Below are positions 3,477-17,300 of a stretch of 32,562 nucleotides of DNA, one piece after another. Source of the DNA: Terriglobia bacterium (lineage in GTDB: Bacteria; Acidobacteriota; Terriglobia; Terriglobales; Acidobacteriaceae). How positions within the stretch are numbered: the stretch's first letter is position 1; every line of letters begins with the position of its first letter. The notes beneath the pieces are model-generated. The model did not search any database. It saw only the letters and a program-made list of their open reading frames with translations, and was not told the DNA's origin. Made by a program: the position numbers and the translations under genes. The stretch is from positions 1-32,562 of the forward strand of contig JAJPHW010000133.1 in NCBI GenBank assembly GCA_021325035.1, given 5' to 3'.

Positions 3477-3794
3477 ATGGCAGCGATTGCCCAATCCGCT
3501 CCGCACATGCCGCGCTGGTATCTGGTTCCAGTTCGGGCTCTGGTTCTGACTTTTGCCTTTACTCTGATGTCGTTTGCCATCTCGCTATTCCTGGGCATTC
3601 TGGGCGTTATTGTTGCGTCTGCATTGCGGGGTGTTCATCCGAATATGACTCTGGCCTACCGCAAAGTGGCCTTCCCCATCGCGGTCATCGTGGCCGTTGT
3701 CGTTTTTATCTCAGCCTTGATAATGGAAATTCGCCGCTATCGCCAGATGAAAACCCTGGCCGGAATTGAAAGAGCGAGCCGACAAAGCGCATGA
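3477..3794 (+). CDS. Small membrane protein with two transmembrane helices
   Basis: About 105 residues with two strong hydrophobic segments: about 18-43 (around LVLTFAFTLMSFAISLFLGILG) and about 62-82 (around VAFPIAVIVAVVVFISALI). A basic C-terminal tail follows. A GTG codon lies immediately before the ATG at 3477, and I use the ATG. Its stop codon overlaps the ATG of the following amidotransferase-type gene (ATGA arrangement at 3791-3794), so the two are very probably co-transcribed and translationally coupled. The family was not recognised. Confidence 0.65.
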   Translation: MAAIAQSAPHMPRWYLVPVRALVLTFAFTLMSFAISLFLGILGVIVASALRGVHPNMTLAYRKVAFPIAVIVAVVVFISALIMEIRRYRQMKTLAGIERASRQSA

Positions 3795-4531
3795 AACCGA
3801 GAATTGCCATTCCTGTACCCCACTCCGGTTTGCCGGAGTATTCCGAACGCGCGCTCCCGCAATATGAACGCGCGGTGGAATTGGCCGGCGGCGAGCCGGT
3901 GCGCATTGCGCTCAACCAAACTCCGGCGCAGGTCATGAAGACTATTGAGCGTTGTGACGGAGTTTTGCTACCGGGCAGCAGCGCGGACGTTGACCCGGCA
4001 AAATACGACCAAGCACGCAATCCTAAAACAGCAGACGCGGACAAGAAACGCGACACCGTGGACGAACTTCTGTTGCAAGACGCCTACAACATGCGCAAAC
4101 CGATTTTGGGAATTTGTTACGGCATGCAGACGTTGAATGTCTATCGCACCGGATCGCTGCTGCAGGATATCGAGTCTCCGGTTAATCACCGCGCAGGAAA
4201 AACTGTGCCGGTGGCCCATTCCGTGGAAGTTGACGCAAAATCGAAGCTCGCTGAAATCATCGGCGGCGAAAAAATCATTTCGGTAAATTCCAGCCATCAT
4301 CAATCGGCGGATGCAATCGGAGATGGATTGCGCATTGTTGCCCGCTGTCCTGACGATGGAATCATCGAAGCTGTCGAAGGCACTTCGCCGGACCATTTTG
4401 TGCTGGCGGTGCAATGGCATCCCGAGCGGTCTGTAGATTTGGATGAGCCTTCACGAAGGATTTTCCGGGCTCTGGTGGAAGCCGCAAAATCCCGCCATAA
4501 AACACTGGCTGGAGAATTCGAATCAGTTTAG
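3791..4531 (+). CDS. Class I glutamine amidotransferase-type hydrolase (peptidase C26, PuuD-like)
   Basis: 246 residues matching the peptidase C26/gamma-glutamyl-gamma-aminobutyrate hydrolase type of class I glutamine amidotransferase. The N-terminal pattern PHSGLPEYSERALPQYERAV and the oxyanion region LLPGSSADVDP are typical. The nucleophile Cys109 sits in GICYGMQ, and His210/Glu212 complete the triad in QWHPE. Known members cleave gamma-glutamyl bonds, for example gamma-Glu-GABA in putrescine catabolism. No other putrescine-pathway genes are present, so the substrate here is not established. The ATG overlaps the preceding stop by 4 nt. It converges on the penicillin-binding protein gene with only 2 bp between them. 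Confidence 0.85.
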   Translation: MKPRIAIPVPHSGLPEYSERALPQYERAVELAGGEPVRIALNQTPAQVMKTIERCDGVLLPGSSADVDPAKYDQARNPKTADADKKRDTVDELLLQDAYNMRKPILGICYGMQTLNVYRTGSLLQDIESPVNHRAGKTVPVAHSVEVDAKSKLAEIIGGEKIISVNSSHHQSADAIGDGLRIVARCPDDGIIEAVEGTSPDHFVLAVQWHPERSVDLDEPSRRIFRALVEAAKSRHKTLAGEFESV

Positions 4532-6861: not shown

Positions 6862-8079
6862 CTAGCTGGCGCGGTTTTTCAGGACTTCAATGGCTTTCTG
6901 CAATTGCTCATCCTGTTGCACAACCGGCTTCTTGTTGTTTTCGTCGGCGGGCGTTGCGTTTTCATCTTCATCGGGAAGCGCAGAGTCATCCTGCTCATCC
7001 GCCACAAGCACGTTCGGAGTTACCGCTGTATCCTGAATCGCTTTGCCGCTGGGTGAATAGTATTTCGCCACCGACAAAATCAGCGCAGAACCGTCTTTCA
7101 ACTCGATCACTTTCTGGACGGAACCATCGCCGAAAGTCTTATCGCCCACGACGTCTGCGCGAGCATTATCGAGCAATGCGGCGGCAACAATTTCAGCCGG
7201 ACCTGAAGTCCCTTTGTTCACGAGCACGACTACAGGCAGAGTTGTAATCGCCTTGGCCGCGTCCGCATTAAAAGCTTCGCGCGGATATTTTTGCCCCTGC
7301 AAATAGGTAATCGTCCCGTGATTGAGGAAGAGGTTCGCAGTGGCGATGCCTTCGGATTCTTCGCCTTCGGCGCAATTGCGCAGGTCCAGAATCAGTTTTT
7401 TGACGCCGGACTTCTGCAAAGCTTTGATCTTGGCAGCGATCTCGCCGGATTCGCCCTTAGTGAAAGTATCCACATGAATCACGCCGACGCCATCTTGCAG
7501 GACTTTGTCGGAGGCTGGTGGAACATTGACGATGTCCCGCGTAATCACCATTTTTTGCGGCTCAGCCCGGCGCGCTCGCACCAGAGAAACCGTGACGGTG
7601 GAACCCGGCGTCCCGCTGAGCAAATTGTGCACTTCCGCCAGCGACATTTCGCGGGTGCTTTTGCCATCAATCGCTTCAAAAATATCGGATGCTTCTACGC
7701 CGGCTTTATCCGCCGGGCCGCCGGGAATTACAGCAATCACCGAAGCATATCCAAAACGCTTGGAAATCGCGGCCCCGATATCACCCTTCGCTCCTGCTTT
7801 ATGCACCTTGAAATCTTTATATTGCGCAGGATTCAAATAGCTTGAGTTGGCGTCAAGCGATTCCAACAATCCGTGCAATGCGCCATCCGTGACCGCAGGG
7901 ATGTTTGGGTCTTCCACATATTCCTGCTGCACGCGCGATAACACTTCGCTATAAACCTGCATCTGGCGGTAAGCGCCCTCGTTGCTGGAGGCGCGAACGC
8001 CGTTCATTCCGCCAACGATCACAAAAAGCAGTAGAACCGCGGAGCAGGCAAGAATTGAAATTTTTGTTTTCATGGACAT
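6862..8079 (-). CDS. S41/C-terminal-processing-protease-like protein lacking the classical Ser/Lys dyad
   Basis: 405 residues with the full architecture of carboxy-terminal processing proteases. It has an N-terminal signal/anchor (about 6-27), a helical domain, a PDZ domain (about 85-180, with GPADKAGVEASDIFEAIDG), an S41 core (about 190-355) and a Lys/Glu/Gln-rich tail. Family members normally have SASASE with a nucleophilic Ser and, exactly 25 residues later, the catalytic Lys in TFGKGSVQ. Here the aligned segments read GTSGPAE and TFGDGSVQ, so the Ser position is Gly (the only nearby Ser is shifted by one) and the Lys is Asp. The protein is probably a non-catalytic scaffold or uses different chemistry. 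The ATG at 8079 precedes a good signal sequence. It has its own terminator. Confidence 0.85.
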   Translation of the reverse strand: MSMKTKISILACSAVLLLFVIVGGMNGVRASSNEGAYRQMQVYSEVLSRVQQEYVEDPNIPAVTDGALHGLLESLDANSSYLNPAQYKDFKVHKAGAKGDIGAAISKRFGYASVIAVIPGGPADKAGVEASDIFEAIDGKSTREMSLAEVHNLLSGTPGSTVTVSLVRARRAEPQKMVITRDIVNVPPASDKVLQDGVGVIHVDTFTKGESGEIAAKIKALQKSGVKKLILDLRNCAEGEESEGIATANLFLNHGTITYLQGQKYPREAFNADAAKAITTLPVVVLVNKGTSGPAEIVAAALLDNARADVVGDKTFGDGSVQKVIELKDGSALILSVAKYYSPSGKAIQDTAVTPNVLVADEQDDSALPDEDENATPADENNKKPVVQQDEQLQKAIEVLKNRAS

Positions 8080-12685: not shown

Positions 12686-12863
12686 GCAAACTACACCGTC
12701 TAAACTTACGCCGAGGACAGGTTAATTTCGGCTAATGCCGTCTCTAAAGAACCAAGGTAATACGCACAAGTACCCTCTTACCAAAGCGCATGCACGTGGG
12801 ATATTTGTCAGCGCAAGGGCTTGGTGAGATGTTGAGATTGCACCGGAGAGAGTGAGCCCACGG

Positions 12864-13256
12864 ATGGCGAGAGAAGATTATCTGGACGATGTGCACAACC
12901 GGATACTGCGAGTGACGGAAGACCTACGGGCAATTCAGCGCGAACTGAATTGCGCCGCAATGGAAGCGCCGGGCGATCCCGAATTGATGGAAGCGCTCAG
13001 TGCGATTCCCGAGATGGAGTCTCTCCAGACGCTTCGCTCCGCTCTCGACCAGATGCGGCACTTTTTGTTTTTTTATATGCAGGTGGTAATGAACGAATCC
13101 GAAGCAGGCGACAAGATACGCCAATCTTTGCGGCAAAAAAACAATGAAGGCGTAGTGTTAAGCCCCGAAATTACGGAATCAGAGAGATTGCGCTCAGCCG
13201 CCGATCTGGCACTGCTGCAATATCTGGCCGAAGGCAAGACCCGCAAACCCAACTAA
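12864..13256 (+). CDS. Small helical hypothetical protein
   Basis: About 130 residues, mainly helical and charged (around residues 10-40 and 55-95), with no signal peptide. I do not recognise the family. A GGAGAG at 12845-12850 lies 13 nt before the ATG at 12864. An in-frame GTG at 12852 is an alternative start but would sit only 1 nt from that site. The gene converges on the GlmS-like gene with a 1-bp gap between stops, so the two 3' ends meet with no room for a separate terminator. Confidence 0.6.
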   Translation: MAREDYLDDVHNRILRVTEDLRAIQRELNCAAMEAPGDPELMEALSAIPEMESLQTLRSALDQMRHFLFFYMQVVMNESEAGDKIRQSLRQKNNEGVVLSPEITESERLRSAADLALLQYLAEGKTRKPN

Positions 13257-13257
13257 A

Positions 13258-14388
13258 TTATTCCAGCGTGACCGACTTCACCAGATTTCGTGGCTTATCC
13301 ACATCCAATCCCTTTTTCACCGTTATGTAATAAGCGATCAGTTGCAAGGGGATGATCTCGAGTATCGGCGAGAGTAACTCCGGCGCTTGCGGAACAAAAA
13401 TGACCTGGTCCACGATATTCGGCAGGAGACTGTCGCCTTCTGTGGCAATCGCAATTACCTGCCCCAATTGTTTTTTGTACGCTTCAATATTCGAGACGTT
13501 CTTTTCATATCGAAGAACCGAACCGAAATCGTTCTTATCGCAAGTGGCAATGGCAACAACGGGCAGATGTTCATCCACCATGGCTATGGGACCGTGTTTG
13601 GTTTCGCCTGTGGGATAGCCTTCGGCGTGAATGTAGGAGACTTCCTTCAGCTTGAGCGCCCCATCCATCGCCACCGGGTAATGAATCGCCCGCCCGACAA
13701 AAAGAAAATCCTCAAATTTGTAATAAAGTTTGCCAATCTCCTCACAGGCGGTTGAAGATTCCAATGTTTTTTCGACTTTTTCAGGCAAACTCAACAACTC
13801 CTTGATGTGTGCCCTGCGCTGCTCTTTGCTAAACTTGCCGCGAACTTGCCCCAGATAAAGCGCGAAAAGATACAGCACAGCCATCTGCGCCGTAAAAGCT
13901 TTCGTGGAAGCAATACTGATTTCCGGACCCGCATGAGTGTAAAGCACTCCGTCAGCTTCACGCGCTATCGTCGAATCAATCACGTTTGAGATCGCAATCG
14001 TCTTTGAGCCCTTTGCCTTGGCCTCGCGCTGCGCGGCGGTCGTATCTGCAGTTTCTCCGGATTGCGTGATGACAATCGTCAACTCTCCCGGTCCAATCAA
14101 AGGATTGCGGTACTCGAACTCACTGGCATAGTCCACATCCACAGGAATATTCAGCAGTTCCTGGATCATGTATTGGCCAGCCATCCCTGCGTGGCGGCTG
14201 GTTCCGGAAGCGACAATGTTGATACGGCGCAATGCGCGCAAATCGTCCACGCCGATCCGGATTTCATCTTCCAGGCGCACGACCGCATCATCCAATGACA
14301 CACGCGGTTCGATGGTGTCGCGTAAGCCCTTCGGCTGGTCGAAGATTTCTTTCAGCATGTAATGCGGAAATTTGCCCTTATCAGGCAT
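13258..14388 (-). CDS. GlmS-like sugar isomerase/deaminase without glutaminase domain (tandem SIS)
   Basis: 376 residues corresponding to the interdomain linker and isomerase half of GlmS. The hinge HYMLKEIFDQP (9-19) is followed by SIS1 (SGTSRHAGM about 61-69; TQSGETADT 109-117) and SIS2. Isomerase residues equivalent to E. coli Lys485, Glu488, His504 and Lys603 are present as Lys246, Glu249, His265 and Lys371. The N-terminal Cys-nucleophile glutaminase domain (about 240 residues) is missing. This is not a truncation by the window or neighbour: a GAGGAG site lies 5 nt before the ATG, and nagA ends 27 bp upstream. With nagA it probably deaminates GlcN-6-P to Fru-6-P plus ammonia (NagB-II/GlmD-like). 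It could instead take ammonia from elsewhere to work in the biosynthetic direction. Confidence 0.85.
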   Translation of the reverse strand: MPDKGKFPHYMLKEIFDQPKGLRDTIEPRVSLDDAVVRLEDEIRIGVDDLRALRRINIVASGTSRHAGMAGQYMIQELLNIPVDVDYASEFEYRNPLIGPGELTIVITQSGETADTTAAQREAKAKGSKTIAISNVIDSTIAREADGVLYTHAGPEISIASTKAFTAQMAVLYLFALYLGQVRGKFSKEQRRAHIKELLSLPEKVEKTLESSTACEEIGKLYYKFEDFLFVGRAIHYPVAMDGALKLKEVSYIHAEGYPTGETKHGPIAMVDEHLPVVAIATCDKNDFGSVLRYEKNVSNIEAYKKQLGQVIAIATEGDSLLPNIVDQVIFVPQAPELLSPILEIIPLQLIAYYITVKKGLDVDKPRNLVKSVTLE

Positions 14389-14415
14389 GAAGGCTCCTCA
14401 CTATAAAATTTCGGA

Positions 14416-15573
14416 TCATGAATAGTTCCCGCCGATCACAGTTTGCAAAACCTCGCCTTTCGAATTGAGGACGGCGAAGTCAGCGCGGGCGCCAGACTCG
14501 AGGCGTCCGCGGTTTTTGAATCCCATCACATGCGCAGGATTCAATGAAGCCAGTCTCGTTGCCCGCTGTAAATCCCATCCAGCAAATTGCATGACGTTGC
14601 GCACTGCGCGGTCCATGGTGAGTACGCTGCCGGCAAGCGTTCCGTTGGCGAGACACTTCCCATCTTTCACTTCGACCTCGACTTCACCGAGTAGGTAGCA
14701 TCCGTCAGGCATGTCGGTCGCCGAAATCGCATCCGTGATAAGAACAGCGGAATCTGGCCCTTTTGCTTCCAAAAAGAGCTTGACGATCGTCGGATCAAGA
14801 TGGATTCCGTCGGCGATGATATCGGCGGTGATTTTGGGATTAGTAAGAACTTCCCCGAGAATTCCCGGATCGCGGTGGTTCAGAGGCCGCATCGCGTTAA
14901 AAGTATGGGTCGCATGGCGTGCTCCCGCGGCAACGCCTGCTCGCGCTGCATCCAGGGTCGCATCGGAGTGCCCCATGCTCACGCACACTCCACGCCGGGC
15001 GGCATGTGCGATCACTTCCTCAGCGCCGTCCAGTTCTGGTGCGATGGTCACGAGAGCGATGTGCCCGCGTGCGGCCTGCCAAAAGCGCTCAAAGATAGCA
15101 ATTGTTGGAGGCACCAAATTCGCGGGCGGATGCACTCCCCGCCGGGCATGGCTAATGAATGGCCCTTCGAGATGAATTCCCAAAGGAACGGCACGATTCG
15201 AGGGCTTACGTTTTGCCGCATCTTCAATTTCATTCGCGAGGCGCTCCAGCGAACTGAGAATTGCATCCACCGGAGCGGTGACCGTGGTCGGAAAATACGC
15301 ACTCACTCCGTGCCTGGAGAGAGATTGCTCCAGTGCCTCAAAACCGGATGTATCGGCGCGCATGACATCGTAACCTGCTCCGCCGTGGATGTGAATATCA
15401 ATAAAGCCGGGAACGATGACCGCATCACCCAAATCAATCACGTTCGTGGCTGAAGGTACTTCCTTATGATCCCGTGGGGCCACAGAATGAATCATGCCGC
15501 CTTCCACCATTACAACCGGATGGACGATGCGCTCCAATGGTGTAAGAAGAGATTTTGCGGTAAAAGCGATCAT
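14416..15573 (-). CDS. nagA: N-acetylglucosamine-6-phosphate deacetylase
   Basis: Cytoplasmic amidohydrolase removing acetate from GlcNAc-6-P during amino-sugar or cell-wall recycling. 385 residues is the normal length. Metal and catalytic residues are visible: HIHGG (His61, His63), HLEGPF (Glu136), GHSDAT (His202), HTFNAM (His223) and the catalytic Asp281 in LITDAISATDMP. It is followed 27 bp later by the glutaminase-less GlmS-like gene on the same strand, forming a two-gene catabolic unit. No transporter or NagK/NagE is in the window. The 215 bp between nagA and tRNA-Pro holds no gene. A TATAAT at 15720-15725 may serve the tRNA. Confidence 0.95.
   Translation of the reverse strand: MIAFTAKSLLTPLERIVHPVVMVEGGMIHSVAPRDHKEVPSATNVIDLGDAVIVPGFIDIHIHGGAGYDVMRADTSGFEALEQSLSRHGVSAYFPTTVTAPVDAILSSLERLANEIEDAAKRKPSNRAVPLGIHLEGPFISHARRGVHPPANLVPPTIAIFERFWQAARGHIALVTIAPELDGAEEVIAHAARRGVCVSMGHSDATLDAARAGVAAGARHATHTFNAMRPLNHRDPGILGEVLTNPKITADIIADGIHLDPTIVKLFLEAKGPDSAVLITDAISATDMPDGCYLLGEVEVEVKDGKCLANGTLAGSVLTMDRAVRNVMQFAGWDLQRATRLASLNPAHVMGFKNRGRLESGARADFAVLNSKGEVLQTVIGGNYS

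Positions 15574-15789: not shown

Positions 15790-17300
<1,511 letters not shown>

Follow-up and report, generated by a model that had tools for sequence, protein, structure and literature searches.

Why would a bacterium keep, directly behind its nagA gene, a second gene of the GlmS type that lacks the ammonia-supplying half of the enzyme? This question is raised by a stretch of 32,562 nucleotides from a Terriglobia bacterium (contig JAJPHW010000133.1, hereafter ‘the window’), in which a glmS-like gene encoding an isomerase half without a glutaminase domain lies downstream of nagA. GlmS makes glucosamine-6-phosphate (GlcN-6-P), a precursor of the cell wall, and NagB is the usual enzyme for the catabolic deamination of this compound. 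From sequence comparisons, we consider it very probable that the short protein is a GlcN-6-P deaminase that is derived from glmS and replaces NagB. The context of a GlcN-6-P deaminase pathway is present, in that the gene is linked to nagA and no other deaminase was found in the genome that holds the window.

The short gene and its product

Both genes of the pair are on the minus strand, separated by a spacer of 27 bp, and their main features are as follows.

14416 to 15573, minus strand: nagA, first gene of the pair, 385 amino acids (aa), ATG start (TIGR00221, PF01979)
13258 to 14388, minus strand: glutaminase-less GlmS paralogue, 376 aa, ATG start, proposed glucosamine-6-phosphate deaminase (TIGR01135, PF01380, 1moq)
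14394 to 14398, minus strand: ribosome-binding site AGGAG, 5 nt ahead of the short-gene ATG (sequence)
14398 to 14400, minus strand: in-frame TGA upstream of the short-gene ATG, with three codons between (sequence)
13651 to 13653, minus strand: Lys246 codon, E. coli GlmS Lys485 (alignment)
13642 to 13644, minus strand: Glu249 codon, E. coli Glu488 (alignment)
13594 to 13596, minus strand: His265 codon, E. coli His504 (alignment)
13276 to 13278, minus strand: Lys371 codon, E. coli Lys603 (alignment)

The product of the first gene scores 327 bits on the NagA model TIGR00221 (cut-off 225.65) and also matches PF01979. The initial annotation had described the second gene as intact and well initiated, with the Cys-glutaminase half absent and the isomerase residues retained, and this description stands. 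The short protein passes the GlmS model TIGR01135 with 423.6 bits (cut-off 418.05), but it spans only positions 245-607 of the 607-position profile. This coverage, together with a tblastn search of the window using the glutaminase half of the same genome's own GlmS, which gave no match at E ≤ 1, shows that the N-terminal Cys glutaminase domain is missing. With the codons ahead of its ATG, the gene forms an open frame of 379 aa. The protein contains two stretches of the SIS domain PF01380, aligns with residues 244-608 of E. coli GlmS (1moq) at E 1.1e-79, and shares with GlmS the C-tail DxPRNL-x-KS.

Lys246, Glu249, His265 and Lys371 align with Lys485, Glu488, His504 and Lys603 of E. coli, which we take to be the catalytic residues of GlmS; Glu488 is presumably the base of the isomerisation, His504 the residue that opens the ring, and Lys603 the Schiff-base lysine of the C-tail. 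We compared these positions among the short forms of relatives, divided into a nagA type close to the window's protein and a set of other, more divergent short forms, and among full-length GlmS and NagB-II-like proteins. The 40 nagA-type rows of this alignment omit the window's own protein (shown apart), one truncated copy (L190), the duplicates L033-L036 and, needlessly, L125. The first three residues are conserved in all rows (40/40 nagA-type, 16/16 other short, 68/68 full-length and 6/6 NagB-II-like), and Lys371 is likewise conserved in every short and full-length row and in five of the six NagB-II-like rows. Four other positions that are fixed in all 68 full-length rows have changed: E. 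coli C300 is replaced by Ser in 56/56 short forms, and in the nagA type R331 is replaced by Glu (38/40), R539 by Gln (38/40) and A602 by Val (37/40). Some of these residues presumably contacted the glutaminase or its ammonia channel, and their loss would be expected once contact with the glutaminase no longer counts.

We sampled 300 genomes of the same Terriglobales family evenly; 41 of them, the window's own genome among these, carry a match of at least 68% identity, and every match has an open frame of 373-471 aa. The ratio of nonsynonymous to synonymous substitution rates (dN/dS) ranges over 0.026-0.086 among relatives (the six pairs with a computable dS); the three pairs that include the window's short gene are saturated. 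Recurrence in intact frames across the family and the low dN/dS thus rule out a chance truncation, a pseudogene or an assembly artefact. Beyond what the initial annotation described, the gene is a member of a family-wide paralogue group rather than a lone odd gene.

Linkage of the short gene to nagA

If the short protein acts in amino-sugar catabolism, then its link to nagA should recur among relatives. We scanned named genomes with patterns from the window's protein and retained the best 80 of 110 loci, comprising 37 short forms and 43 others. The 37 short forms are 68-81% identical to the window's protein, and their records are named Acidobacteriota, many of them Terriglobia, Terriglobales or Acidobacteriaceae. 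In 34 of these loci the short gene is preceded by nagA in the same orientation; at L130 an opposite-strand protein-kinase gene intervenes between nagA and the short gene, and at L152 nagA is interrupted by the contig end. When the window and the loci L037-L039 are added and four duplicates are removed, the same arrangement is found in 38 of 41 distinct loci with at least 67% identity. Both loci at 59% identity (L040, L041) also have nagA upstream, and these are tallied separately because they were assigned to the nagA type partly for having nagA. At 54% identity or less, nagA is beside none of 16 short forms in the DNA fetched, so that 40 of all 59 short forms seen have it. Over 46 rows, duplicates included, nagA is present in 43 and lies within 150 bp in 40, with a median spacing of about 30 bp.

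Two controls were available. The remaining 43 scanned loci, which come almost exclusively from other groups of acidobacteria or other phyla, carry full-length GlmS (cut by the contig in L189 and in two frames in L179), and none has nagA. More closely, 14 loci of the family that hold a full-length glmS were inspected, and none had nagA within a few kb; eight of these loci come from genomes whose short form has nagA. This same-family control strengthens the linkage.

Other amino-sugar genes of the genome

We also analyzed the genome holding the window (3.86 Mb, 97.95% complete) for other enzymes of the pathway. The initial annotation had suggested a non-orthologous replacement of NagB by a protein evolved from GlmS, and the gene content is in line with this. 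A full-length glmS is present elsewhere (G000:C91; 832.9 bits on TIGR01135), so that the lack of such a gene, an objection named in the initial annotation, does not apply, and the short protein is 60% identical to its product over the shared isomerase half. Searches with PF01182 and TIGR00502 found no NagB, the best TIGR00502 score being 42.2 bits. This score belongs to the sole PF01182 protein of the genome, which we rejected as a NagB; it scores 216.5-216.9 bits as a 6-phosphogluconolactonase. No NagB-II-like gene was found either, the matches to NF046059 being the two GlmS paralogues and a SIS protein at 24 bits. With regard to the source of N-acetylglucosamine-6-phosphate (GlcNAc-6-P), the sole ROK gene overlaps a gene for a sugar permease of the major facilitator superfamily (MFS), and a BadF-type kinase is nearest to NagK of Shewanella; both kinases are below their model cut-offs, and together with the permease they make such a source plausible.

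It is also conceivable that the short protein is part of a heteromer or a regulator, its partner being the full-length GlmS or a glutaminase encoded elsewhere. Since the isomerase halves of GlmS dimerise, mixed dimers would be possible, and the window itself contains a class I amidotransferase-like gene (3791-4531), which lies 9 kb from the pair with no apparent link to it and scores 103.5 bits on a gamma-glutamyl-GABA hydrolase model (cut-off 266). However, GATase_6 (PF13522), the sole glutaminase family searched, gave no class II glutaminase in the genome that stands by itself; all seven hits lie in long proteins, in open frames of 479-688 aa, which also speaks against the separate glutaminase subunit that the initial annotation had named as a possible objection. 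In addition, the short forms have lost C300, R331, R539 and A602, which are fixed in the full-length rows. We therefore regard such a partnership as very unlikely.

Co-occurrence with nagA and proposed replacement of NagB

Next to linkage, we considered which genomes carry which genes, using a survey of 61 genomes that comprised 37 from the family, 14 from a sister family and 10 others. A nagA gene above the cut-off is present in 50 of the 61. Within the family, the short form occurs in 25 of 31 nagA-bearing genomes as against none of the six without nagA (Fisher p 4e-4, or 5e-3 when a truncated copy in G020 is counted against the hypothesis). In the sister family, in which no short form was found, NagB-like genes are common: at a threshold of 140 bits, picked after the scores were known, at least one is present in 9 of 13 nagA-bearing sister-family genomes and in 1 of 31 nagA-bearing genomes of the family (p 9e-6), and at 100 bits the counts are 10/13 and 10/31 (p 0.009), although all these Fisher p-values overstate the association because the genomes are related. 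Two of the sister-family genes were tested further, and scored 174 and 180 bits as NagB against 71-78 as 6-phosphogluconolactonase. NagB-II-like genes of at least 200 bits occur in six surveyed genomes, one of them in the family; in G038 such a gene adjoins nagA. In 18 of the 25 short-form genomes of the survey, no other candidate deaminase reaches 100 bits (17 if a 91-bit gene in G014 is counted). These co-occurrence data, together with the phylogeny described below, support the view suggested from the window that the short gene descends from glmS, is linked to nagA and has replaced NagB.

A separate observation concerns three genomes (G020:C107, G032:C60 and G033:C8), in which a NagB-like gene of 106-123 bits adjoins a gene whose product resembles NagA but, at 178-207 bits, stays under the nagA cut-off. 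These pairs possibly serve the use of a different amino sugar, galactosamine for example.

Divergent short forms and the limits of the group

The survey also contained 16 more divergent short forms (L043-L058), which are 41-54% identical to the window's protein and occur, away from nagA, in 15 of the 37 family genomes. The neighbours of one (L054) include N-acetylneuraminate-lyase-like, epimerase-like and MFS genes, resembling a set for sialic-acid catabolism, and ROK kinases or regulators lie near L043, L047, L052 and L058, as well as near the nagA-type L040. No short form of either type was found in the 24 surveyed genomes beyond the family; the sole short-looking frame there, in G050, was rejected, since the contig edge lies inside a glutaminase remnant and the gene is a cut full-length one.

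When 66 loci, the window's included, were searched with the glutaminase half by tblastn, the only real match was in L059 of G007. We rejected this locus as a short form, because the glutaminase half lies just upstream in another frame and the protein groups with full-length GlmS; it appears as a full-length glmS split by a frame change between the two halves (G007:C35, about 7186-7824). L042 (G011) was rejected because a contig end truncates it and its product falls with full-length GlmS, and L061 (G020), also truncated by a contig end, was excluded.

Phylogeny of the isomerase half

All trees were obtained by quick searches. The tree without an outgroup contains 74 isomerase halves (39 short and 35 full-length), leaving out six NagB-II-like and two odd rows. 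In this tree a single branch divides the short from the full-length forms with a support of 99 in the Shimodaira-Hasegawa-like approximate likelihood ratio test (SH-aLRT). Full-length GlmS proteins from the same family join the short forms with a support of 93.7, which is not decisive. A single clade of nagA-type short forms is not rejected by the approximately unbiased test (p-AU 0.57).

The tree with the NagB-II-like rows has 82 rows, and the constrained comparison omits the two odd ones. The NagB-II-like proteins attach among the most divergent short forms via a long branch of 1.42 changes per column, and the free search thus roots the tree among the short forms, which become a grade around full-length GlmS. 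When the short forms are constrained together with these rows included, the tree is 3.6 log units better than that of the free search (p-AU 0.613). The free search had missed this better tree. A single clade of short forms is thus neither rejected nor shown. The full-length rows of Nitrospirota, Verrucomicrobiota and Patescibacteria fall among the other full-length GlmS, and for this reason we read the grade as long-branch attraction. We therefore prefer a history in which one duplication of glmS in the ancestor of the family was followed by one loss of the glutaminase half, with the unlinked copies diverging later. Nevertheless, the outgroup tree weakens the single origin that we infer here.

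Direction of the proposed reaction

A number of observations weigh against a catabolic deaminase that has simply taken the place of NagB. In the scan, nagA is absent at L145, L146 and L148; at L146, a gene of the NagB fold is located some 3.5 kb upstream. The 16 divergent short forms are without nagA in the DNA fetched, and several stand beside unrelated genes (citrate lyase, RNase, glycine dehydrogenase). In seven of the 25 genomes with a short form, a NagB-like gene of at least 100 bits is present as well; among them is G033, the sole genome of the 61 with a NagB above the curated cut-off. The 91-bit gene of G014 is a broken NagB-like gene, and in two genomes (G007, G025) nagA is present but no deaminase of the three types was found. 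The NagB-like genes of the sister family, at 150-181 bits, are themselves below the TIGR00502 cut-off of 236.9.

A phosphoglucose-isomerase-like activity is also known for the isomerase half of GlmS, as a side activity of the E. coli enzyme. Given that this half is complete in the short protein, it might act as a hexose-phosphate isomerase interconverting fructose-6-phosphate (Fru-6-P) and glucose-6-phosphate, as the isolated half can. However, the genome has its own phosphoglucose-isomerase-like frame, which adjoins a transaldolase gene and scores 57 bits on PF00342 (cut-off 22), and the linkage of the short gene is to nagA. A role as a hexose-phosphate isomerase is accordingly very improbable in our view.

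The direction of the reaction is a further question. Deaminases are described as reversible, and Giardia NagB efficiently forms GlcN-6-P from Fru-6-P and ammonia (PMC4281351). The short enzyme might thus be an ammonia-dependent GlcN-6-P synthase that works in the biosynthetic direction as a back-up of GlmS. Such a use is possible in G012 (99% complete), in which a short form of 46% identity (L049, at G012:C8) is present and no full-length GlmS match was found. In G108, which belongs to this genus as well, there is one match only at E 1e-60 or better (5.2e-98). The short form may be the sole GlmS-type enzyme in G012 and G108. In the window's genome, however, full-length GlmS is present, and pairing with nagA would be odd for a second source of GlcN-6-P, given that NagA already yields it. 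The short forms also track nagA, and some of their neighbours fit uptake and catabolism. We therefore consider a back-up synthase unlikely and keep to deamination as the proposed function.

Relation to known enzymes

How does the short protein compare with known enzymes? Like GlmS (glutamine–fructose-6-phosphate transaminase, TIGR01135), it has the isomerase half, the four catalytic residues and the C-tail, and it passes the cut-off; unlike GlmS, it is without the glutaminase half, is linked to nagA, and has replacements at residues that are fixed in the full-length enzyme. No glutamine-dependent synthesis is expected of it, because the glutaminase half is missing. With NagB (TIGR00502, PF01182) it would share the proposed reaction and pathway position, but it has SIS matches only and none to PF01182.

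GlcN-6-P deaminases of the SIS fold are already known. NagB-II of Shewanella (SO3506) is a glutaminase-less SIS-fold protein, the deaminase activity of which was confirmed by its authors (PMC2996990). The short protein resembles it in fold and in the absence of a glutaminase, but scores 118.5 bits on NF046059 against a cut-off of 430, and its full-length paralogue in the genome reaches 119.1. Even the NagB-II-like proteins encoded by relatives, at 200-238 bits, are below the cut-off, and the long branch separates them from the short forms. On the model of GlmD (NF041128), which we take to be the archaeal deaminase similar to the GlmS isomerase, the short protein scores 93.9 bits against a cut-off of 580. 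The archaeal deaminase is described as dimeric and as resembling the GlmS isomerase domain (PMC4281351). Thus, the assignment of the short protein to the known NagB-II or GlmD was rejected by score, which is far below both cut-offs, and while it should work like these enzymes, it belongs to neither, being instead a GlmS that has lost one of its halves.

Another SIS protein that works with NagA is NagS of Streptomyces, which dehydrates GlcNAc-6-P to a product that NagA deacetylates (PMC12680351). The short protein could act in the same way, ahead of NagA. However, the SIS domain of NagS spans the whole protein, which was cloned on a 796-bp fragment, and its chemistry is different (PMC12680351), whereas the window protein has two SIS stretches in 376 aa. 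It also passes the GlmS model, and the C-tail lysine is kept in all 56 short forms examined. The same paper tested three distant NagS homologues from beyond Streptomycetaceae and saw negligible activity in one and none in the other two (PMC12680351). A NagS-like dehydratase is thus extremely unlikely.

Among the matches listed in PMC (titles and starts of abstracts, with subscription papers mostly outside its scope), there was no paper on a glutaminase-less GlmS in Acidobacteriota. The kind of enzyme is known; new are its likely independent emergence here, its employment in a large part of one family, and the trap that it sets for annotation.

Surroundings of the gene pair

No conserved operon was seen beyond nagA and the short gene, and the neighbours differ among relatives. 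A 134-aa gene without Pfam or NCBIfam match (12852-13256) is convergent with the short gene, a position conserved in three relatives (L033, L034, L037). Just upstream of nagA, a serine-recombinase-like gene (15801-17300, minus strand) overlaps a tRNA-Pro gene (15790-15866, plus strand), and its final codons are the complement of the tRNA; an element appears to have inserted at tRNA-Pro, with one of its ends here. A promoter scan gave one hit, as against 2.3 expected in shuffles, and no RNA families were found apart from two tRNAs. Elsewhere, at L145 and L146, a large transporter-like gene lies just downstream of the short gene on the opposite strand, its product being sodium/solute-symporter-like in L145 and similar by eye in L146; a GntR-type regulator gene is also near L145.

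Discussion

Based on these results, we propose that glmS was duplicated in the ancestor of the Terriglobales family, and that one copy shed the glutaminase domain at its N terminus and thereby the ammonia supplied within the molecule, while the full sugar-phosphate isomerase half was retained. With the chemistry of GlmS kept and the delivery of ammonia lost, the reaction in the cell would run from GlcN-6-P to Fru-6-P and ammonia. His265 would open the ring, Lys371 would form a Schiff base with the sugar, Glu249 would shuttle the proton between aldose and ketose, and ammonia would then be released. Together with NagA, the enzyme would convert GlcNAc-6-P via GlcN-6-P to Fru-6-P, standing in for NagB, and the full-length GlmS encoded elsewhere would retain the biosynthetic direction. 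The anatomy of the gene, its full-length paralogue, the genome's gene content, the link to nagA, the branch between short and full-length forms, the low dN/dS of relatives and the kept residues are observed here; which reaction takes place, in which direction and by what chemical steps, and that duplication and loss each occurred once, is inferred from the sequences.

In a wider sense, we think it somewhat more probable than the contrary that this is an enzyme reversed by the loss of a domain, through one duplication of glmS and one loss in the Terriglobales ancestor, which became catabolic across much of the family independently of NagB-II and GlmD. In at least one genus (seen in G012 and possibly G108) it may even have displaced GlmS and form the essential GlcN-6-P out of free ammonia.

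If this is true, then a gap in the catabolism of N-acetylglucosamine would be filled in the genomes of a group of soil acidobacteria. Since the short protein passes the GlmS equivalog cut-off, it is likely to be named a biosynthetic transaminase in error. Furthermore, the family would offer a natural experiment on what the glutaminase domain contributes to GlmS, with paralogues in the same genome that have and lack it, that probably run in opposite directions, and that differ by a short list of changed residues.

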